Shown here one piece after another: positions 38,545 to 47,971 of a DNA stretch of 64,000 bases. Position 1 is the first letter of the stretch; every line of letters starts with the position of its first letter. The position numbers were made by a program, and so were the translations under genes. This stretch comes from Flagellimonas aquimarina (GTDB taxonomy: Bacteria > Bacteroidota > Bacteroidia > Flavobacteriales > Flavobacteriaceae), in NCBI RefSeq assembly GCF_003149745.1, contig NZ_QGEG01000001.1:1178001-1242000 (forward strand), given 5' to 3'. The notes beneath the pieces are model-generated. The model saw only the letters and a list, made by a program, of their open reading frames with translations. It ran no database searches and had not been told where the DNA came from.

Positions 38545-39837
38545 TCATTGTTGCCAATCCAGAGCTGTTTCCATTTTTTTCTTGATCCCTTCCAAACACA
38601 AATTCCCCAAACTGCCCTCATGGGAATGTTTTACATTTTTTTTGGGCTTAAAGGTTCCTGCTTCAATTTCTGCCCCCATTTTTTTGTAGGCATCTCTAAA
38701 TGGCATGCCGTTGGTAACCATTTCGTTTAACGTGTCTACACTAAAAAGATAATCGTATTTGGGGTCGTCTAAAATAGTGGTGTTGACCTTTATTTCCTTT
38801 AAGCTAAAATGCATCAGTTCCAAACACGCCTTTATATCTTGAATGGCAGGAACGATCACTTCCTTGACCAATTGCAGGTCACGATGATATCCACTGGGCA
38901 AATTATTGGTAATCAAGGTCAATTGATTGGGTACCGCTTGGATTTTGTTGCATTTGGCCCGTATGAGTTCAAAAACATCCGGGTTCTTTTTATGGGGCAT
39001 AATGCTACTGCCGGTGGTCAACTCATCCGGAAAAGAGATGAAATCAAAATTCTGGCTCATGTACAAACAGATGTCCATTGCTAATTTTGACAATGTTGAG
39101 GCTACACTGGAAATCCCAAAGGCGGTGGCTTTTTCTACTTTTCCACGCCCCATTTGGGCTGCCACCACATTGTATTTCAAGGTTTCAAAACCCATTGCCG
39201 ATGAGGTGAAAGTTCTGTCTATAGGAAAGGAACTACCGTAGCCAGCAGCACTGCCCAAGGGGTTTTGGTCAGCTATTTTGTATGCGGCATGTATAAAATA
39301 AAGGTCATCAATTAGGCTTTCCGCGTATGCCGAAAACCAAAGTCCAAAAGAAGATGGCATGGCAATCTGTAAATGGGTATAGCCAGGAAGCAAAACGGAT
39401 TGGTGTTTTTCTGCCAAATTCAATAACAGATCAAAGAGGATTCTAACTTCACTTTTGATTTCCGTCAATTCATTTTTAAGGTATAGTTGCATCGCCACCA
39501 ACACTTGATCGTTTCTAGAACGTGCCGTATGGATTTTCTTTCCTGTATCGCCCAGTTTTTCAATGAGCAAAAATTCTATTTTGGAATGCATGTCCTCAAA
39601 GTCATCTTCAATGGTGAACAATCCATCTTCAATACTGTTTGCGATTTTATCCAACTCTGTTACCAAGCTATCGGCCTCATCTGTGGTAATCAACCCCACG
39701 TTGCCAAGCATTTTGGCGTGCGCTTGCGAAGCAATGACATCATATTTTGCCAAGAGCAAATCCAGTTGCCTGTCGTTACCGACCGTAAAATGGTCAATTT
39801 TTTTGTCTGTACTGAATCCTTTGTCCCAGAGTTTCAT
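38545..39837 (-). CDS. argH: Argininosuccinate lyase
   Basis: 430 residues of the fumarase/aspartase superfamily. The signature GSSIMPHKKNPDVFELIRAK carries the mobile catalytic loop, HSKIEFLLIE and TARSRNDQVLVAMQLYLK are substrate-binding regions, and LLPGYTHLQIAMPSSFGLWF holds the catalytic His region. It cleaves argininosuccinate to arginine and fumarate, the last step of the pathway. It is the final gene of the ten-gene operon and overlaps the ACT-domain gene by 4 bp. No terminator was recognised in the 180 bp after it. Confidence 0.96.
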   Translation of the reverse strand: MKLWDKGFSTDKKIDHFTVGNDRQLDLLLAKYDVIASQAHAKMLGNVGLITTDEADSLVTELDKIANSIEDGLFTIEDDFEDMHSKIEFLLIEKLGDTGKKIHTARSRNDQVLVAMQLYLKNELTEIKSEVRILFDLLLNLAEKHQSVLLPGYTHLQIAMPSSFGLWFSAYAESLIDDLYFIHAAYKIADQNPLGSAAGYGSSFPIDRTFTSSAMGFETLKYNVVAAQMGRGKVEKATAFGISSVASTLSKLAMDICLYMSQNFDFISFPDELTTGSSIMPHKKNPDVFELIRAKCNKIQAVPNQLTLITNNLPSGYHRDLQLVKEVIVPAIQDIKACLELMHFSLKEIKVNTTILDDPKYDYLFSVDTLNEMVTNGMPFRDAYKKMGAEIEAGTFKPKKNVKHSHEGSLGNLCLEGIKKKMETALDWQQ

Positions 39838-40244
39838 AGTTTCAATTTAGTGGTATGTGTCAATTTTAGTAAAACGTCCATGGCTTTCTTCGCATCTAGC
39901 TTGTCTATAAAGATGTGGTCATGATAATATGCGGCAACTACATTACAACTGATTTGTTTTTCTGCCAGAGCATTTGAAACTGCAGCGGTGAGCCCAACGG
40001 ATTGCAAAGAAGAATGAACCATTAGGGTAATACATGAGGCAATATAGTCGTAATTGAGATGTAGCTTATCCGCATTTTCCTTTTTTAAAATGAGGGTGAT
40101 TCCTTCTTTTTCTTTAAAAGTACCGTGAACGACGGTCAGGTCTATTTGAAAAGATTCTGGCACACTGACAAAAACGTAGCTTTCTTCATGAAGAACGGGT
40201 TTCATTTTAGATAAAATTGCGACTAGATTTGTTTCTCCTGACAT
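39834..40244 (-). CDS. ACT-domain protein (DUF2241/COG3602-like) of the arginine operon
   Basis: 136 residues made of two ACT-like modules. ESYVFVSVPESFQIDLTVVH and TLILKKENADKLHL belong to the first; CITLMVHSSLQSVGLTAAVS and NALAEKQISCNVVAAYYHDH belong to the second. ACT domains bind amino acids and commonly regulate biosynthetic enzymes. Here the gene lies between argE and argH with a 4-bp overlap to the latter. A role in sensing arginine or proline, or in controlling a pathway enzyme, is a reasonable inference, but no ligand is shown by sequence. Confidence 0.85.
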   Translation of the reverse strand: MSGETNLVAILSKMKPVLHEESYVFVSVPESFQIDLTVVHGTFKEKEGITLILKKENADKLHLNYDYIASCITLMVHSSLQSVGLTAAVSNALAEKQISCNVVAAYYHDHIFIDKLDAKKAMDVLLKLTHTTKLKL

Positions 40245-40248
40245 TGAA

Positions 40249-41325
40249 CTACGAATTAATTAGAAACCCTCTTAAAATTTTGATGTACAAGTCTATTCCT
40301 TCCCCAATTTCGTTCACATAAATGAATTCATTGGCAGAGTGTGACCTGGTGCTATCTCCTGGCCCCAATTTTACAGATTGGCAACTTAAAGCGGCCTGGT
40401 CTGATAGTGTAGGGGAGCCATAGGTTTTTCTTCCCAATGCAATACCGCTTTTCACTAAATCATGTTCAGGGTCTATGGCGGAAGAGTTTAATCGTAACGA
40501 ACGAGGCGTCATTGTACAAGGCGCTTCATTTTGTAGGATATTGGCAATTTCTTGATTGGAATAACAATCATTGACGCGTACATCTACCACCAAATCTACT
40601 TGTGCAGGTACCACATTATGTTGATTTCCCGCATTGATTTGGGTCACCGTTAGTTTCACCTCGCCCAAAGCATCAGAAATCTTTTCAAAAGAATAATCTT
40701 TAAACCAATCAAGGACTTTAATGGTATTGTATATAGAATTGTTGGTATTAGGATGTGCTGCATGAGATGGGGTGCCCTCTACAACGGCATCAAAAACAAT
40801 GAGGCCTTTTTCGGCTATGGCCAAATCCATTAAGGTGGGCTCTCCCACAACGGCAACATCAATTTTAGGAAGAATGGGCAATAATGCTGTTAAGCTCTTT
40901 TCACCGGCATCTTCTTCTTCGGCAGTAGCTGCCATGATGATATTATGCGTCAAATGTTCTTGCTCATAAAAATGTACAAAAGTGGCCAAAAGAGAAACTA
41001 GGCAACCTCCAGCATCATTACTGCCCAAGCCAAACAATTTTCCGTCTTCAATATGCGGACTAAAAGGGTTCTTGGTGTATGCACTATTGGGTTTTACGGT
41101 ATCATGATGGGAGTTTAAGAGCAAGGTGGGCTTGTTTTCATCAAAGTGCTTGTTAAAGGCATATATGTTGTTAAATTGTCTTTGGGTTTTAACACCAAAG
41201 CTCGACAACCATTCTGTAATTGCTTGTGCGGTTTGATCTTCTTCCCCAGAAAAAGAAGGGGTGGCAATCAGTTGCTGAAGCAGCTCGATAGCTCTTTTGG
41301 TCAATATTTCTTGATTGATGTTCAT
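40249..41325 (-). CDS. argE: M20-family N-acyl-ornithine/citrulline deacylase
   Basis: 358 residues of the M20 metallopeptidase family. The metal site motifs are LLLNSHHDTVKP, GLGSNDAGGCLVSLLA and ATAEEEDAGE, plus a late His in STRSHSANEFIYV. It removes the acyl group that protects the amino group during arginine synthesis. Because the carbamoyltransferase in this operon is of the acyl-ornithine type, the substrate is probably N-acylcitrulline rather than N-acylornithine. The acyl group may be succinyl, given Ser90 in that enzyme. It overlaps argB by 4 bp. Confidence 0.9.
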   Translation of the reverse strand: MNINQEILTKRAIELLQQLIATPSFSGEEDQTAQAITEWLSSFGVKTQRQFNNIYAFNKHFDENKPTLLLNSHHDTVKPNSAYTKNPFSPHIEDGKLFGLGSNDAGGCLVSLLATFVHFYEQEHLTHNIIMAATAEEEDAGEKSLTALLPILPKIDVAVVGEPTLMDLAIAEKGLIVFDAVVEGTPSHAAHPNTNNSIYNTIKVLDWFKDYSFEKISDALGEVKLTVTQINAGNQHNVVPAQVDLVVDVRVNDCYSNQEIANILQNEAPCTMTPRSLRLNSSAIDPEHDLVKSGIALGRKTYGSPTLSDQAALSCQSVKLGPGDSTRSHSANEFIYVNEIGEGIDLYIKILRGFLINS

Positions 41326-42101
41326 AAGGTCAATGTGGTGAAATTTGTAGTTGTTCCTTGAAGCATGGTACTATCTCCGATACAGACTTGCTTTACATTC
41401 TTTTGAAGCGCTTGGAAGCAATTGTGCATTTTTGGAAGCATCCCATCCGCTATTACTCCATCTGCTAAAAGCTCATTGTATTTTTTGGAATCTATATGTT
41501 CAATTACCGAGTTTTCGTCATCAATGTTTTGCAATACACCTTGCTTTTCAAAACAATAATATAAGGTAGTTTCAAATTGGGTTGACATGCCAGAAGCTAA
41601 TTCAGCTGCTATTGTATCTGCATTGGTATTGAACAGCTGTCCTTTGCCATCATGACTCAACGCACAGAAAACAGGTGTAAATTCTGCGTTTAATAAACTG
41701 GAAATGTTGTTTGAGTTTACAGCATCCACATCTCCAACAAGGCCAAAATCAATTTCTTTGACAGGTCTTTTATGTGCCACAATTGAATTTCCGTCTGCCC
41801 CGCTCATTCCAATGGCATTGCAATTAAGGGCTTGAAGCTGTGCAACTATTTTTTTGCTCACCAACCCACCATAGACCATGATCGCAACATCTAGACTTTG
41901 CGCATCCGTTATTCTGCGACCGTTTGTCATTTTGGCTTCGATACCTAGCTTATTGCCAATCTCAGTCGCTTTTTTGCCGCCGCCATGGACCAAAATTTTG
42001 AGTCCGTCCATATTGGAAAACAATTCCAACAAATATGAAAGCCCTTGTTCATCTTCAATAATATTGCCTCCTATTTTTACAATGGATAATTTAGTTTTCA
42101 T
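41322..42101 (-). CDS. argB: N-acylglutamate kinase
   Basis: 259 residues of the amino acid kinase family. SIVKIGGNIIEDEQG and ILVHGGGKKATEIGNKLG hold the phosphate-binding glycines, TNGRRITDAQSLDVAIMVYG the substrate side and FNTNADTIAAELASGM the late catalytic Asp region. It phosphorylates the gamma-carboxylate of N-acetyl- or N-succinylglutamate. It overlaps argF' by 11 bp. There is no N-terminal arginine-sensing helix extension, so classic feedback inhibition by arginine is less likely, which leaves the leader ORF or ACT protein as control points. Confidence 0.93.
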   Translation of the reverse strand: MKTKLSIVKIGGNIIEDEQGLSYLLELFSNMDGLKILVHGGGKKATEIGNKLGIEAKMTNGRRITDAQSLDVAIMVYGGLVSKKIVAQLQALNCNAIGMSGADGNSIVAHKRPVKEIDFGLVGDVDAVNSNNISSLLNAEFTPVFCALSHDGKGQLFNTNADTIAAELASGMSTQFETTLYYCFEKQGVLQNIDDENSVIEHIDSKKYNELLADGVIADGMLPKMHNCFQALQKNVKQVCIGDSTMLQGTTTNFTTLTL

Positions 42102-43035
42102 GGTTCTCCAATATTTTTTTCAAGACCAGTTGCGCTGCAAAGGTTCTATTGTTTGCTTGCTCTATTACCAGGGATTGGTTTTTGTCCAAAACAGCATCTT
42201 CAACCACAACATTTCTGCGAACAGGAAGGCAGTGCATAAATTTAGCGTGACCCAATTTTTTTTCTGTCATCATCCAGTTGGTATTCTGATGCAGAACTTG
42301 CCCATAGTCTTCATAACTGCTCCAGTTCTTTACATAAATAAAATCTGCATTTTCCAAGGCCGTCTCTTGATCATATTCAATTTGGCAGCCATTGGTGATT
42401 TCTGGATTTAACTCATATCCTTTGGGATGTGTAATGATGAAATCGGCTTCTTGTTTTTTCATCATCTGCACAAATGAATTGGCTACTGCATGTGGCAAAG
42501 CTTTTGGATGGGGCGCCCATGATAAAACCACTTTAGGCTTTGATTTGGTTTTATGCTCGGCCAGGGTAATGGCATCTGCAAGGGCCTGTAATGGGTGGGC
42601 CACCGAGCTTTCCATATTCACTATTGGGATAGATGCATGTTTTGCAAAGCCGGTTAGCACCTCTTCCGCTTCATCCGTTATCTTATCTTCTAATTTGGCA
42701 AACGCCCTTATGGCAACAATATCGCAGAACTGAGAAACTACCCTGGCAGCTTCTTTAATATGTTCAGAGGTTCCCTGGTTCATCATGGTTCCATCTTCAT
42801 ATTCCAAGGCCCAACCCTCGCTGCCAAAATTCATGATCATGACTTCCATTCCCAAATACATTGCCGCTTTTTGGGTGCTCAATCGTGTTCTAAGGCTATT
42901 ATTAAAAAATAGTAAACAGATTGTTTTTTGTTTGCCCAAATGTTGAAACCCATAGGGACTTTTTTTCAATGCTATTGCTTCATCAACCCAATTGGGAAGA
43001 GAATCAATATCGTTTATGGATAGGTAATGTTTCAT
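42091..43035 (-). CDS. argF': N-acyl-L-ornithine carbamoyltransferase, probably N-succinyl type
   Basis: 314 residues. LLFFNNSLRTRLSTQKAAMY replaces the STRT motif of ordinary ornithine carbamoyltransferase and is diagnostic for acyl-ornithine enzymes; MHCLPVRRNVVVEDAVLD near the C-terminus also fits. The residue that discriminates acetyl- from succinylornithine (Glu92 in the Xanthomonas enzyme, Pro90 in Bacteroides fragilis) is Ser90 here, in NQGTSEHIKEAARV. From memory of the published swap, replacing Glu92 with Ser, Pro, Ala or Val gave succinylornithine activity, so the succinyl route is predicted. It shares one base with argD and overlaps argB by 11 bp. Confidence 0.92.
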   Translation of the reverse strand: MKHYLSINDIDSLPNWVDEAIALKKSPYGFQHLGKQKTICLLFFNNSLRTRLSTQKAAMYLGMEVMIMNFGSEGWALEYEDGTMMNQGTSEHIKEAARVVSQFCDIVAIRAFAKLEDKITDEAEEVLTGFAKHASIPIVNMESSVAHPLQALADAITLAEHKTKSKPKVVLSWAPHPKALPHAVANSFVQMMKKQEADFIITHPKGYELNPEITNGCQIEYDQETALENADFIYVKNWSSYEDYGQVLHQNTNWMMTEKKLGHAKFMHCLPVRRNVVVEDAVLDKNQSLVIEQANNRTFAAQLVLKKILENHEN

Positions 43036-44159
43036 TATAATTCTTTTTTTAGGGCTTCAAAGAATAAATCAATATGCGTTTTAGTAATGTTCAGGGCCGG
43101 TAAAAACCGGAGCAATTGCTTGTTTTTTGCCCCACCGGTAAAAACATGCTGATTGTAGATCAACTTTTTCCTTAAATCGGCAACCTCAAAGTTAAATTCA
43201 AGCCCCAACATTAACCCTCTCCCCTTTATTTTTTTTATCTGTGGAATTTCTAATGCTTTTTCTTTGAAATAGATTTCCAAAGCCTCTGCATTTTTAATCA
43301 AACCTTCTTTTTTCAATACTTCCAAAACGGCCATGGTAGCCGCACATGCCAAATGATTGCCTCCAAAAGTAGTTCCTAAAAGCCCATAACTTGCTTTGAT
43401 AGTTTTATGGATTAAAACACCGCCAACAGGAAAACCATTCCCCATTCCTTTTGCTATGGTAATGATATCTGGTTGAACAGTATGATGCTGAAATGCAAAA
43501 AACTTACCACTTCGACCAAAACCGGATTGTACTTCGTCCGCAATTAAAACAACGCCATTTTCTTTACATTTTTCTGCAATAAATTGATAGAATTCTGTTG
43601 TAGGTTCATCCAACCCCCCAACGCCTTGAATTGCCTCTAAAATTACTGCACAGTATGCATTTGAAGTAATTGCATTTTCAAATCCTTTGAAGTCATTTAA
43701 TGAAAGAAAAGTTACTTGTTGTTGCTTGTTTATTGGGGCAATTATATTGGGATTGTCCGTTGTGGCCACTGCAGCGGAGGTTCTGCCATGAAAACTATTG
43801 TTAAATGCGATGACTTTGGATTTTCCAGTTTTAAAGGAAGCCATTTTCAGTGCATTTTCATTGGCTTCTGCGCCAGAATTGCACATAAAAAGATTATAGT
43901 CTTCGCATTCAGAAGCTACTCCTAATTTAGTGGCAAGTTCTTGTTGCAAGGGGTTTTGAACAGAGTTGCTATAAAATCCGATATTATCCAACTGCTCTTT
44001 AAGTCGGTTTACGTAATGTGGATGCGAATGTCCTATAGAAATCACAGCGTGCCCGCCATAAAAATCAAGATATTTTTGGCCCTTGTTATCTATTACCTCA
44101 ATACCTTTTGCAGATACTGGAGTAACATCATAAAGTGGGTATACATCAAATAGCTCCAT
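43035..44159 (-). CDS. argD: N-acylornithine aminotransferase
   Basis: 374 residues, class III PLP-dependent aminotransferase. YLDFYGGHAVISIGHSHPHY, FMCNSGAEANENALKMA, VAFNNSFHGRTSAAVATTDN, VLIADEVQSGFGRSGKFFAF and IAKGMGNGFPVGGVLIHK (with the PLP lysine) are all present. It converts N-acylglutamate semialdehyde to N-acylornithine with glutamate as donor. It starts 6 bp after proC and abuts argF'. It is shorter at the C-terminus than E. coli ArgD but keeps all catalytic motifs. Confidence 0.94.
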   Translation of the reverse strand: MELFDVYPLYDVTPVSAKGIEVIDNKGQKYLDFYGGHAVISIGHSHPHYVNRLKEQLDNIGFYSNSVQNPLQQELATKLGVASECEDYNLFMCNSGAEANENALKMASFKTGKSKVIAFNNSFHGRTSAAVATTDNPNIIAPINKQQQVTFLSLNDFKGFENAITSNAYCAVILEAIQGVGGLDEPTTEFYQFIAEKCKENGVVLIADEVQSGFGRSGKFFAFQHHTVQPDIITIAKGMGNGFPVGGVLIHKTIKASYGLLGTTFGGNHLACAATMAVLEVLKKEGLIKNAEALEIYFKEKALEIPQIKKIKGRGLMLGLEFNFEVADLRKKLIYNQHVFTGGAKNKQLLRFLPALNITKTHIDLFFEALKKEL

Positions 44160-44165
44160 AATTTT

Positions 44166-44960
44166 TTACCCTTTTTTGATGTGGCTTATTTTTTCAAATG
44201 AGGCAACAATTCCTCTGATCAAAGAAGAACTTAAGCCTTGGTGCTCCATTTCATTAAGTCCCTCAATGGTACAGCCTTTTGGAGTTGTAACCCTATCAAT
44301 TTCTTCTTCGGGATGACTACCGGACTCTATTAAAAGACTTGCAGCGCCGTTGCATGTGTGCATGGCCAATTCTTGAGCCTCCTTGGCATCAAAGCCAAGT
44401 TGAATTGCCCCTTGTGTGGTTGCCCGAATCAAGCGCATCCAAAACGCAATACCGCTAGCACATATTACAGTGGCTGCTTGCATCTGGTCCTCTGGAATTT
44501 CCAAGGTATGACCCATTCTGTTGAAAATGGCTTTGGCCAAATCGATTCGTTTCTTTCCAAGTTCATTGGTGCACAGGCAGGTCATGGAATTACCCACAGA
44601 AATTGCAGTGTTGGGCATGCTTCGAATAATATACCTTTCTGACCCTATAATTTCTTCAATTTTGGAAATACTAAAGCCGGTTATGGTGCTAATGATGACG
44701 TGCTTTTCGGTCAATAAATCTTTAACCTGCTCTAAAATTGCAGCAAAATGGCCCGGTTGTACCGCAAAAATTAAAACATCTGATTTTTTTACAGCTTCTT
44801 GATTGTCAGAAGTGACGGTCACGTTGCCATACTTTTCAAAATCCTTGATTTCTGTAGTATTTCTTTTGGTAAGATACATGGTGGTGGCGCCATTGCTATG
44901 CAAAACTCCTTTTGCGACTGCCAATCCTAAATTTCCTGCTCCTATTATTGCTATTTTCAT
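44166..44960 (-). CDS. proC: Pyrroline-5-carboxylate reductase
   Basis: 264 residues. The Rossmann motif IAIIGAGNLGLAVAKGV is at the N-terminus; SMPNTAISVGNSMTCLC and the C-terminal VTTPKGCTIEGLNEMEHQGL are P5C reductase signatures. It makes proline from pyrroline-5-carboxylate with NAD(P)H. Its presence within the arginine genes, between argC and argD with gaps of 13 and 6 bp, links proline and arginine synthesis in one transcript. The leader peptide upstream of the operon is rich in both Arg and Pro codons. Confidence 0.95.
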   Translation of the reverse strand: MKIAIIGAGNLGLAVAKGVLHSNGATTMYLTKRNTTEIKDFEKYGNVTVTSDNQEAVKKSDVLIFAVQPGHFAAILEQVKDLLTEKHVIISTITGFSISKIEEIIGSERYIIRSMPNTAISVGNSMTCLCTNELGKKRIDLAKAIFNRMGHTLEIPEDQMQAATVICASGIAFWMRLIRATTQGAIQLGFDAKEAQELAMHTCNGAASLLIESGSHPEEEIDRVTTPKGCTIEGLNEMEHQGLSSSLIRGIVASFEKISHIKKG

Positions 44961-44973
44961 TTTGATTTTCTTT

Positions 44974-45948
44974 TTAAAATACCCCTGCTTTCAATCGCAA
45001 TCCAAGACTTTCATCAAAACCAAACATTAAATTCATGTTCTGAACGGCTTGCCCAGATGCCCCTTTTATTAGGTTGTCAATGGCAGATGTTATTAATAAT
45101 TGGTCCTGGTGCTTATGTAAATGAATATGGCATTGATTGGTATTCACCACTTGTTTTAAATGAATGGGTTCTTCTGATATATGAGTAAAAACTGCGTTTG
45201 AATAAAATGTAGAATATTTTTTTTTTGCTTCATCCAACGAACCTTCAAACTTGGTGTAAGCCGTGGCTAAAATACCTCTTGTAAAATTTCCTCTATTGGG
45301 CAAAAAGAACAGTTTACCAATTGGGTTTCCAAAAGAATCTAAACTCTCACCAATTTCCCCTAAATGTTGATGGGTAAAAGGTTTGTACCAGGAAACATTG
45401 TTATTTCGCCAGCTAAAGTGTGATGTGGACGATAAGCCTACTCCTGCGCCAGTACTGCCGGTTACTGCATTTATATGAACGTCATTAGGCAATAACTCTG
45501 CTTTTGCCAAGGGCAACAGCGCCAATTGAATTGCCGTTGCAAAGCACCCCGGATTGGCTATATTTTCAGATTTTTTTATTTCCTCCCTATTCAGTTCTGG
45601 CAATCCATAGATAAACACTTTTTTGCTTAAGGCATTATCTTTTTGTAATCTAAAATCATTGCTCAAATCTATGATTCTAGTGTTGGCGGCAAAGTTGTTT
45701 TCTTCCAAGAACTTTGTTGAATTGCCATGGCCAAGACATAAAAAAACTAAGTCAACTTTGGGATTTACTTCTCCCGTAAATTTTAAATCGGTCAATCCCA
45801 ATAGATCTTGGTGGGCGGAGCTAACCAATTTTCCTGCACGCGTAGTGCTATAGATAAAATCAATATCGGCTTCTGGATGATTCAATAGAATTCTGATCAA
45901 TTCTCCGCCAGTATACCCTGAGCCTCCTATTATTCCTGTCTTAATCAT
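44974..45948 (-). CDS. argC: N-acyl-gamma-glutamyl-phosphate reductase
   Basis: 324 residues. The N-terminal NADPH site is TGIIGGSGYTGGELIRILLN, the active-site Cys is in NIANPGCFATAIQLALLPLA, and GLSSTSHFSWRNNNVSWYKP with FTHQHLGEI carries the active-site His. It reduces N-acylglutamyl phosphate to the semialdehyde. It overlaps argG by 8 bp. Its type-1 length and motifs are normal. The acyl group is probably succinyl if the prediction from argF' holds. Confidence 0.94.
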   Translation of the reverse strand: MIKTGIIGGSGYTGGELIRILLNHPEADIDFIYSTTRAGKLVSSAHQDLLGLTDLKFTGEVNPKVDLVFLCLGHGNSTKFLEENNFAANTRIIDLSNDFRLQKDNALSKKVFIYGLPELNREEIKKSENIANPGCFATAIQLALLPLAKAELLPNDVHINAVTGSTGAGVGLSSTSHFSWRNNNVSWYKPFTHQHLGEIGESLDSFGNPIGKLFFLPNRGNFTRGILATAYTKFEGSLDEAKKKYSTFYSNAVFTHISEEPIHLKQVVNTNQCHIHLHKHQDQLLITSAIDNLIKGASGQAVQNMNLMFGFDESLGLRLKAGVF

Positions 45949-47131
45949 TGCTTTGATTTACATGGTTCGCAATTTTTCCGGAATTGGAAAGTATTTTAAT
46001 AAACCCTTTTGCATCATTGGCGGTCCAACCTTTGTTCATTTCACCATAACTTCCAAAAGAGGCATTCATTAAATCATTTTTGGAAGAGATTCCATTCAAT
46101 TCAAATCGGTAAGGATGCAGTGTTACAAAAACATCACCAGTAACATTTTTTTGAGTGTCTTCTAGAAATACTTCAATATTCCTCATTACTTCGTCCAGAT
46201 AATTTCCTTCATGCAGCAACATGCCATAAAAATTCCCCAGCTGTTCTTTTTGATATTGCTGCCACTTGCTTAAAGTGTGTTTTTCAAGTAAATGATGCGC
46301 TTTAATTATGATAAGTGGTGCAGCGGCCTCAAAGCCCACTCTTCCTTTAATTCCAATAATCGTGTCTCCCACATGAATGTCTCTGCCAATGGCATATTTT
46401 GCAGCTATTTCTGAGAGTTTTTCAATATTCTCAACGGGAGTTGCGCTTTCACCATCAATAGCGGTAAGTTCACCTTTTTTAAAACTAAGCTTGAGCTCCT
46501 TTGAAAATTCTTTTTCCAATTGACTTGGGTACGCCGTTTCGGGCAATGGTAAATGCGAGGTTAACGTTTCATCACCTCCAACAGAGGTGCCCCATAATCC
46601 TCGATTGATGGAGTATTTTGCTTTTTCCCACGGATAATCAACTCCATTTTTTTGTAAATAAGCAATTTCAGCTTCTCTTGATAGTTTATTATCTCTGATT
46701 GGAGTGATTATTTCAATTTCTGGAGCTATGATTTGAAAAATCATATCAAATCTTACCTGATCGTTTCCTGCGCCTGTGCTGCCATGGGCTATATAGTTTG
46801 CTCCAATTTTTTTAGCGTGATTTACAATTTCTATGGCTTGAACAATACGTTCCGCACTTACCGAAAGAGGATAGGTGTTGTTCTTGAGAACATTTCCAAA
46901 GACAAGGTACTTTACCACTTTTTCGTAAAAATTGGAAATGGCATTTATAGAAGTATAGGATGTAGCACCTAGATCCAGTGCTTTTTGCTGTATGCTTGTA
47001 ATTTCCGCTTTGGAAAAACCACCTGTGTTCACACTTACAGCATTGACTTCAAATCCTTCTTCTTTTGATAAATATTTTGCGCAGTAGGATGTATCTAACC
47101 CTCCGCTATAGGCTAAAACTAGTTTTTTCAT
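45941..47131 (-). CDS. argG: Argininosuccinate synthase
   Basis: 396 residues. The PP-loop AYSGGLDTSYCAKYL is at residues 5-19; YIAHGSTGAGNDQVRFD, YSINRGLWGTSVGGDE and IHVGDTIIGIKGRVGFEAAA are further family motifs. It joins citrulline and aspartate with ATP to form argininosuccinate. It is the second gene of the operon, overlapping the GNAT gene by 4 bp (ATGA). Placement of the late-step enzymes argG and argH at opposite ends of one operon is typical of Bacteroidota. Confidence 0.94.
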   Translation of the reverse strand: MKKLVLAYSGGLDTSYCAKYLSKEEGFEVNAVSVNTGGFSKAEITSIQQKALDLGATSYTSINAISNFYEKVVKYLVFGNVLKNNTYPLSVSAERIVQAIEIVNHAKKIGANYIAHGSTGAGNDQVRFDMIFQIIAPEIEIITPIRDNKLSREAEIAYLQKNGVDYPWEKAKYSINRGLWGTSVGGDETLTSHLPLPETAYPSQLEKEFSKELKLSFKKGELTAIDGESATPVENIEKLSEIAAKYAIGRDIHVGDTIIGIKGRVGFEAAAPLIIIKAHHLLEKHTLSKWQQYQKEQLGNFYGMLLHEGNYLDEVMRNIEVFLEDTQKNVTGDVFVTLHPYRFELNGISSKNDLMNASFGSYGEMNKGWTANDAKGFIKILSNSGKIANHVNQSND

Positions 47132-47754
47132 TTTGCTTTCTTTTTTAGAAAGAGGTTTTCCTTAATTCGTTTCAATCTTTGAAACGCTTTGCCATTAAGT
47201 CTTTTCGGTTCAGTCTTTGATTCAGTTTTTGATGTGTTTGGATTGTAAAGCATTCCGGTGCACAGGCACATGTTTCGCTCCGTCCTGGTAAGGATGTCAA
47301 AGTTCTTGCAGGTCTGGCAACCTTTCCAAAACTCTGGGTCATCTGTAAGTTCTGAAAATGTAACAGGTTTGTACCCTAGTTCATAATTCATTTTCATTAC
47401 TGCCAAACCGGTTGTGATTCCAAAGATTTTGGCATCAGGGAATTTTTGTTTGGAAAGCTCAAAAATTGCTTTTTTAATTTGTTTGGCCAATCCTTGTTTT
47501 CTGTAGTCTGGGTGTACGATCAAACCGGAGTTTGCAACAAAGTTTTTGTTTCCCCAGACTTCAATGTAACAGAATCCAGCGAACTTTTCACCGTCCAACG
47601 CAATTACCGCATTGGCATTCTCTAGACGTTTTATAATATATTCTGGCGTACGTTGTGCAATACCGGTACCACGGACTTTTGCCGATTCTGTGATGGTATC
47701 GCTAATGATTTGAGCGTATTTAAAATGTGACTCGTTAGCAACTATAATTTCCAT
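47128..47754 (-). CDS. GNAT acyltransferase with Cys-rich tail, candidate N-acylglutamate synthase
   Basis: 208 residues, first structural gene of the arginine operon. The GNAT core has VANSGLIVHPDYRKQGLAKQ, the acyl-CoA pyrophosphate loop, and ITTGLAVMKMNYELGYKP. After it come four closely spaced cysteines (CQTCKNFDILTRTERNMCLC), the pattern of a small metal-binding knuckle, and a basic tail. No classic argA or argJ gene is present in the operon, so this is the best candidate for acylating glutamate. If the pathway uses succinyl intermediates it would use succinyl-CoA. The fold is firm; the reaction is inferred from the operon position. Confidence 0.82.
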   Translation of the reverse strand: MEIIVANESHFKYAQIISDTITESAKVRGTGIAQRTPEYIIKRLENANAVIALDGEKFAGFCYIEVWGNKNFVANSGLIVHPDYRKQGLAKQIKKAIFELSKQKFPDAKIFGITTGLAVMKMNYELGYKPVTFSELTDDPEFWKGCQTCKNFDILTRTERNMCLCTGMLYNPNTSKTESKTEPKRLNGKAFQRLKRIKENLFLKKKAK

Positions 47755-47805: not shown

Positions 47806-47878
47806 GGAAATGGACTCACCTATTTCCAGGGATATAGTGCACCCTTACGGGCGACGACGTGGAGAGAATGGACGCACT
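47806..47878 (-). promoter_or_regulatory. Candidate attenuator fold between the leader ORF and the arginine operon
   Basis: Read on the minus strand, AGTGCGTCC (47878-47870) can pair with GGGTGCACT (47844-47836) over nine pairs including two G-U. A competing hairpin pairs CGCCC (47853-47849) with GGGTG (47844-47840) around a GUAA tetraloop that holds the leader stop codon. A third hairpin GGAAAT/ATTTCC (47827-47822 and 47811-47806) lies before the first gene. The first two exclude each other. No U-run is seen, so the outcome may act on translation or Rho. Confidence 0.45.
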
Positions 47879-47925
47879 GGAGCAAAGCTGCTCAAGATGA
47901 ATAATATGTATTGTTGTCCTTTCAT
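47845..47925 (-). CDS. 26-residue Arg/Pro-rich leader peptide of the arginine-proline operon
   Basis: A short ORF from ATG at 47925 to TAA at 47845-47847, 90 bp before the GNAT gene. It starts MKGQQYILFILSS and ends APVRPFSPRRRP. Three consecutive Arg codons (CGT CGT CGC) and a Pro codon come immediately before the stop; in total 4 of 26 residues are Arg and 4 are Pro, all in the last eleven. The operon downstream makes arginine and, through proC, proline. This is the arrangement of leader peptides where the ribosome stalls when the end product's charged tRNA is scarce. The region between it and the first gene can form alternative hairpins. Expression is not proven, and the promoter was not clearly identified. 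Confidence 0.65.
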   Translation of the reverse strand: MKGQQYILFILSSFAPVRPFSPRRRP

Positions 47926-47971
47926 TATGGGTTAAAAGTACAAATTAATTCCAGTTGGCATAGAAAAGGAG

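Follow-up and report, generated by a model that had tools for sequence, protein, structure and literature searches.

An arginine-codon leader peptide with two conserved hairpins precedes the arginine operon of Flavobacteriaceae and is a probable terminator-less attenuator

The arginine operon of Flagellimonas aquimarina is preceded by a short open reading frame (ORF) that ends in a run of arginine codons and is followed by two hairpins conserved across the Flavobacteriaceae; comparative sequence analysis suggests to us that this arrangement is probably an arginine attenuator that works in cis through the ribosome and has no terminator. The ORF lies on the minus strand of the window analyzed here (a 64,000-nt stretch of contig NZ_QGEG01000001.1), has 26 codons specifying MKGQQYILFILSSFAPVRPFSPRRRP and terminates with CGT CGT CGC CCG TAA (Table 1), which bears out a preliminary description of this DNA that had placed such an ORF ahead of ten arg/proC genes. 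It is situated within a 217-nt gap, with a GT87-like gene on one side and, on the other, an operon whose gene order is GNAT acetyltransferase, argG, argC, proC, argD, argF' (N-acetylornithine carbamoyltransferase-like), argB, argE-like, ACT-domain protein and argH. A putative -7 promoter element is found about 15 nt upstream of the leader ATG. The ACT-domain protein encoded between the argE-like gene and argH (39837-40244, minus strand) has two such domains, ACT_3 and ACT_7, and is a possible amino-acid sensor.

Table 1. Positions within the window of the leader, its hairpins and the operon genes
Feature	Position	Strand	Remarks
Possible -7 promoter element TAATTTG	47941..47947	-	Resembles the Bacteroidota consensus TAnnTTTG
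Leader peptide ORF	47845..47925	-	Open frame and start codon in 94/94 family loci; RRP-type ORF in 79/80 named relatives
P0 hairpin GAGCA-GCTT-TGCTC, within the leader ORF	47880..47893	-	Top covarying signal in the helix scan
Arg codon triplet CGT CGT CGC	47851..47859	-	Arg occupancy 99%, 94% and 68% at the last three Arg positions
P1 hairpin CGCCC-GTAA-GGGTG	47840..47853	-	93.6% of cells paired
P1-P2 linker, 12 nt	47828..47839	-	11-14 nt in 90/92 loci
P2 hairpin GGAAAT-(A)-GG-TGAGT-CC-ATTTCC	47806..47827	-	Pentaloop consensus U-N-N-G-Y
First gene, GNAT acetyltransferase (208 aa)	47131..47754	-	
argG	45944..47131	-	
argC	44977..45948	-	
proC	44169..44960	-	
argD, argF', argB, argE-like, ACT-domain protein, argH	38548..44159	-	

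The decisive evidence is conservation, the Arg-Arg-Arg-Pro 12-mer being weak by itself (0.23 chance matches are expected at no more than two mismatches). R1, a covariance model of the two hairpins (P1 and P2), matches 97 of 151 Flavobacteriaceae genomes, once per genome and immediately before the arginine operon, save for three weak, chance-like matches; the weak matches in the family (genomes G075, G028 and G056) adjoin unrelated genes and were rejected. The genome of the window itself has a single match. The GNAT gene that opens the operon was detected in 100 of the 151 genomes, with the upstream DNA read for most of them, and a comparison of the two tables places the R1 element at the operon in 93 of these 100 and leaves seven without it. 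Upstream of this gene the family shows a near-universal string: CGYCGCCC-GTAA-GGGTG, a linker and GGAAC-(UUA)-GG-TGNGT-CC-GGTTCC. Among 80 named relatives (from Flagellimonas, Allomuricauda, Zobellia, Maribacter, Arenibacter and others), the P2 core is present in every one and a leader ORF of the RRRP or RRP type in 79, the leaders nearest to that of the window being those of Flagellimonas and Allomuricauda. The arginine-codon leader ORF is thus kept before orthologous operons together with covarying hairpins, and on this point the attenuator proposed in the preliminary description is upheld and survives the refuting condition set there, a lack of conservation of the ORF or its Arg codons.

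The distribution of the element has some exceptions and outer limits. In one genome (G085), the first gene has been swapped for a different acetyltransferase-like protein and the element still precedes argG, while one genus (g129) has a GNAT-argG operon without the leader element, apparently through loss of the attenuator. Beyond the Flavobacteriaceae, R1 yielded two weak matches at E<=0.01, one within a coding gene and one elsewhere, both of which we judge to be chance. A search against Rfam (release 15) returned no covariance-model match in the window at E<=1, and for the loci of 20 relatives just two, both under the gathering score and to unrelated families. A search of openly accessible articles brought up no account of an arginine leader in Bacteroidota.

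The 5' arm of P1 is formed by the last Arg codon and the Pro codon, and the stop codon UAA sits inside its loop. Its sequence is nearly invariant, in part because it codes for Arg-Pro, and covariation is consequently thin, with a compensatory CAC:GUG in three loci. P2, which was the third hairpin of the preliminary description, covaries strongly: all six pairs of its outer helix show changes on both sides, with 97.9% of cells paired in the 94-locus alignment, and the arms visibly differ between loci (GGAAAT/ATTTCC, GGAGTT/AACTCC and GGAGAT/ATCTCC). For the whole structure, 82 cells are changed on both sides against 16.7 ± 3.5 in shuffled alignments and at most 20 when the structure is slid along, a comparison to be read with the bias towards the structure that comes from fitting the alignment to R1. 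Both P1 and P2 form in the minimum-energy fold, and the leader as a whole is no stabler than its shuffles (z = -0.06). The linker between them is, across the family, 59% T and 6% G. The AGGTGA of P2 was considered as an extended Shine-Dalgarno sequence and ruled out, as GA..TC variants retain the pair and lose the motif. Within the ORF, a further hairpin, P0, lies about 30 nt before P1, and the helix scan of 89 loci recovered 10-15 distinct stems for it at a single position; a hairpin in this region scores at P<=0.1 against shuffles in 52 of 94 loci, with its 3' end mostly 25-33 nt before P1. In 10 other families, a U-N-N-G-Y pentaloop hairpin resembling P2 was present at 14 of 64 loci, compared with 0.24 on average in shuffles, a contrast that is an upper estimate since the pattern was picked after viewing some of those loci. 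The stop-codon hairpin is a trend only in other families (8 of 35 at P<=0.1). A pairing of the P2 loop with the 3' arm of P1 seems plausible on visual inspection for a few of the other families, was not seen in Flavobacteriaceae and was discarded.

These structures could be parts of a classical attenuator of the trp/his type, in which two exclusive folds decide whether an intrinsic terminator forms. On paper, CGTCC (47874-47870) can pair with the same GGGTG that CGCCC (47853-47849) uses in P1, and these were the mutually exclusive pairings of the preliminary description; moreover, the linker after P1 is U-rich, with at least five T within 8 nt 3' of P1 in 55 of 92 loci, so that in some species P1 might conceivably bring about weak intrinsic termination. 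However, only the P1 half of the supposed switch is conserved. The CGTCC partner is missing in many Flagellimonas and Allomuricauda leaders, which read PISPF where that of the window reads PVRPF and thereby lack the upstream Arg-Pro codons, and across 89 loci no alternative helix involving the P1 arms, P2 or the flanks was conserved in the helix scan, which hence gave no sign of a conserved, mutually exclusive antiterminator. Before the first gene, the terminator scan of this part of the window detected no hairpin with a U-run, in agreement with the earlier remark that a U-run is lacking; short T-runs do follow P2. The same scan does score the his leader of this genome, which served as a positive control: upstream of hisG (locus L298 on contig C2), an HHHH leader, MRNKNTHHHHFYTCTQAR, is followed by the intrinsic terminator AACCCGTTTGAGAAATCAAACGGGTT-TTGTTTTT. 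From this leader and its terminator, we infer that textbook ribosome-mediated attenuation operates in the lineage. The histidine attenuator is conserved in the genus (L293-L311); for the thr operon, taken as a second control, no leader was found in the stretch examined. Given the above, a classical switch before the arginine operon appears unlikely.

A translational output, with the stalled ribosome changing how accessible the first-gene start is, or with reinitiation coupled to the leader, would fit the distance from the leader stop to that start, which is alike in most loci (about 85-100 nt). Against it, the distance from P2 to the start ranges from 41 to 241 nt, and the A/U-rich region around the start codon is left unpaired by the fold, which disfavors simple translational occlusion. 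The helix scan likewise recovered no conserved helix with the first-gene start region, and thus no partner by which the start could be sequestered. We therefore regard translational control as improbable; the lack of a terminator, the unpaired start region and the variable P2-to-start distance together favor control of transcript elongation.

The comparative evidence indicates that the leader ORF is translated. In the R1-aligned loci, the RRP frame runs uninterrupted over 20 codons or more, with the start mostly 24-31 codons upstream, and the stop directly follows the Pro codon in 79 of 94 loci and lies 3-9 codons later in the remainder. The Arg occupancies in Table 1 derive from 174 leaders, and the other two frames are near zero. 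The 704 Arg codons of the leaders comprise 361 CGC, 314 CGT, 13 AGG, 11 CGA, 4 AGA and 1 CGG, which is to say that CGT and CGC account for 675 of them (96%), against 24% in the genes of the window, where AGA leads with 44% (usage here being that of the window's long ORFs); this bias remains outside the part overlapping P1 (341 of 367 Arg codons). In other Bacteroidia families, a short ORF whose end is Arg-rich is seen upstream of the orthologous GNAT gene in 42 of 64 loci, against 7-12 of 64 after shuffling, as exemplified by MFLKTKHIANKLPSFARPFRPSRRPHGGIC, ...NFSPVRRRRYFFRV, ...LPVRPVFYIRR and ...RRPFSRRPARV. Several of these leaders use AGG codons and some have AGA or CGA codons, which argues that it is the amino acid, and not one nucleotide string, that is under selection. 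The locus hence presents a short ORF with clustered codons for the amino acid that its operon produces, as attenuators do, and we predict that the amino acid sensed is arginine, not proline.

The same observations bear on readings in which the codons are not what is sensed. P1 and P2 might form a ligand- or protein-binding RNA, such as a small arginine aptamer or a repressor site, with the ORF secondary; the near-invariant loop and the bulge of P2, unneeded by a plain stem, and the similar pentaloop in 10 other families speak for this, but the conservation in the aligned loci of the ORF together with its Arg codons, start codon and approximate length, and the persistence of Arg codons with different nucleotides in other families, make it a doubtful candidate. 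A nascent-chain arrest peptide, in which the ribosome would be halted at the stop codon by ...RRRP itself, would account for an Arg/Pro-rich C-terminus adjoining the stop in a leader of usually 24-31 codons; residues other than Arg are, however, poorly conserved and the ends vary (RRP, RRT, RRLVRV, RRPLGV and RR followed by the stop), which renders it very unlikely. Joint sensing of arginine and proline, as first suggested to match proC in the operon, can largely be set aside, for although Pro codons are common within the last 11 codons, the final Pro changes to Thr or Leu along with P1 (RRT, RRL), many leaders outside the Flavobacteriaceae do without it, and no single upstream Pro position exceeds 30%.

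The probable terminator-less attenuator thus returns as the preferred reading, and the regulatory setting accords with it: ArgR (PF01316) is absent from all 151 Flavobacteriaceae genomes, with control genomes positive, making cis-acting control more plausible as the main regulator. Under such a mechanism, a scarcity of charged tRNA-Arg would stall the ribosome on the CGY run, where it would enclose the 5' arm of P1 and prevent this hairpin from forming. When arginine is plentiful, the ribosome would reach the UAA in the P1 loop and depart, allowing P1 to reform. P1 with a linker of 12-13 nt has what we take to be the geometry of a hairpin-stabilized RNA polymerase pause, comparable to the his and trp leader pauses. 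Its formation would hold the polymerase, permitting early termination, for which the lack of an intrinsic terminator makes dependence on Rho most likely. Pausing and Rho would most likely constitute the output step, with the geometry and the missing terminator pointing to these steps; the spacer between P2 and the start of the first gene is G-poor (15% C, 8% G), which bears on Rho only indirectly. At the termination step, the target of P2 is probably the polymerase, Rho or another factor, and P0 may assist the ribosome in keeping up with the polymerase. More speculatively, P1 and P2 might constitute a new attenuation signal, a stop-codon hairpin coupled to a U-N-N-G-Y hairpin that turns the position of the ribosome into readthrough, with no intrinsic terminator involved, via a trans-acting factor recognizing P2; such a signal would be conserved across the Bacteroidia before the arginine operon and would replace ArgR in the Flavobacteriaceae, a proposal that we put forward only tentatively.

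The arginine element probably acts as an attenuator, although two of the traits that define the classical type are absent from it. With attenuators of the his, trp and leu type it shares regulatory codons that cluster within a leader ORF ahead of the matching operon; it differs from them in having neither an intrinsic terminator nor a conserved terminator/antiterminator switch, and in the stop codon placed in a hairpin loop and the conserved pentaloop hairpin P2. A leader ORF with sensing codons and the absence of an intrinsic terminator are the traits by which it falls in with the Rho-dependent leader-peptide attenuators. In Salmonella orf34-speF, a leader ORF with consecutive Arg codons senses arginine and Rho is involved (PMC6386406). 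That leader resembles the present one in its consecutive Arg codons, its lack of an intrinsic terminator and a hairpin downstream of the stop, and is unlike it in serving a gammaproteobacterial ornithine decarboxylase and in operating additionally through sequestration of the ribosome-binding site (RBS) and RNase G decay (PMC6386406). The Salmonella mgtL leader of mgtCBR, which is Rho-dependent and has Pro codons, appears similar in tying leader translation to early termination without a U-run, a likeness drawn from the literature only; its signals are magnesium and proline, and its RNA is different. The rbfL leader peptide of S. aureus also senses arginine by Arg codons (PMC13009471), but these are the rare AGA and AGG, the paused ribosome blocks the rbf RBS, and the leader does not belong to an arginine operon and is without P1 and P2 (PMC13009471). 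Within the same family, leader-peptide attenuation of amino-acid operons was inferred in F. psychrophilum from transcriptome data, hisG and pheA elements being named in the text (PMC9723704); the structured leaders of that study have no Rfam matches, and its main text names no arginine element (PMC9723704).

A second Arg-rich ORF was picked up further upstream in 46 loci, a few of them probably by chance, and most of these ORFs are of a Flavobacterium-like MxxxKNKIR..PGLP.R.RRR type, found some 180-320 nt ahead of the GNAT start (L030-L081, for example L049 and L053). The start of this ORF can often pair with an A/U-rich stretch after its own stop (14 of 46 at P<=0.02), with sequences that differ between genera, raising the possibility of a long A/U-rich helix enclosing the ORF. 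At such tandem loci, the P1-associated ORF starts in many cases with GTG or TTG. Since as many as half of the aligned loci have a second Arg leader upstream, the two may form a tandem sensor.

For the Flavobacteriaceae, which lack ArgR, the leader offers a testable answer to how arginine synthesis is controlled in about two thirds of the sampled genera. A single genome would then combine two modes of control by leader peptides: the textbook attenuator of the his operon and, before the arginine operon, one that has no terminator.
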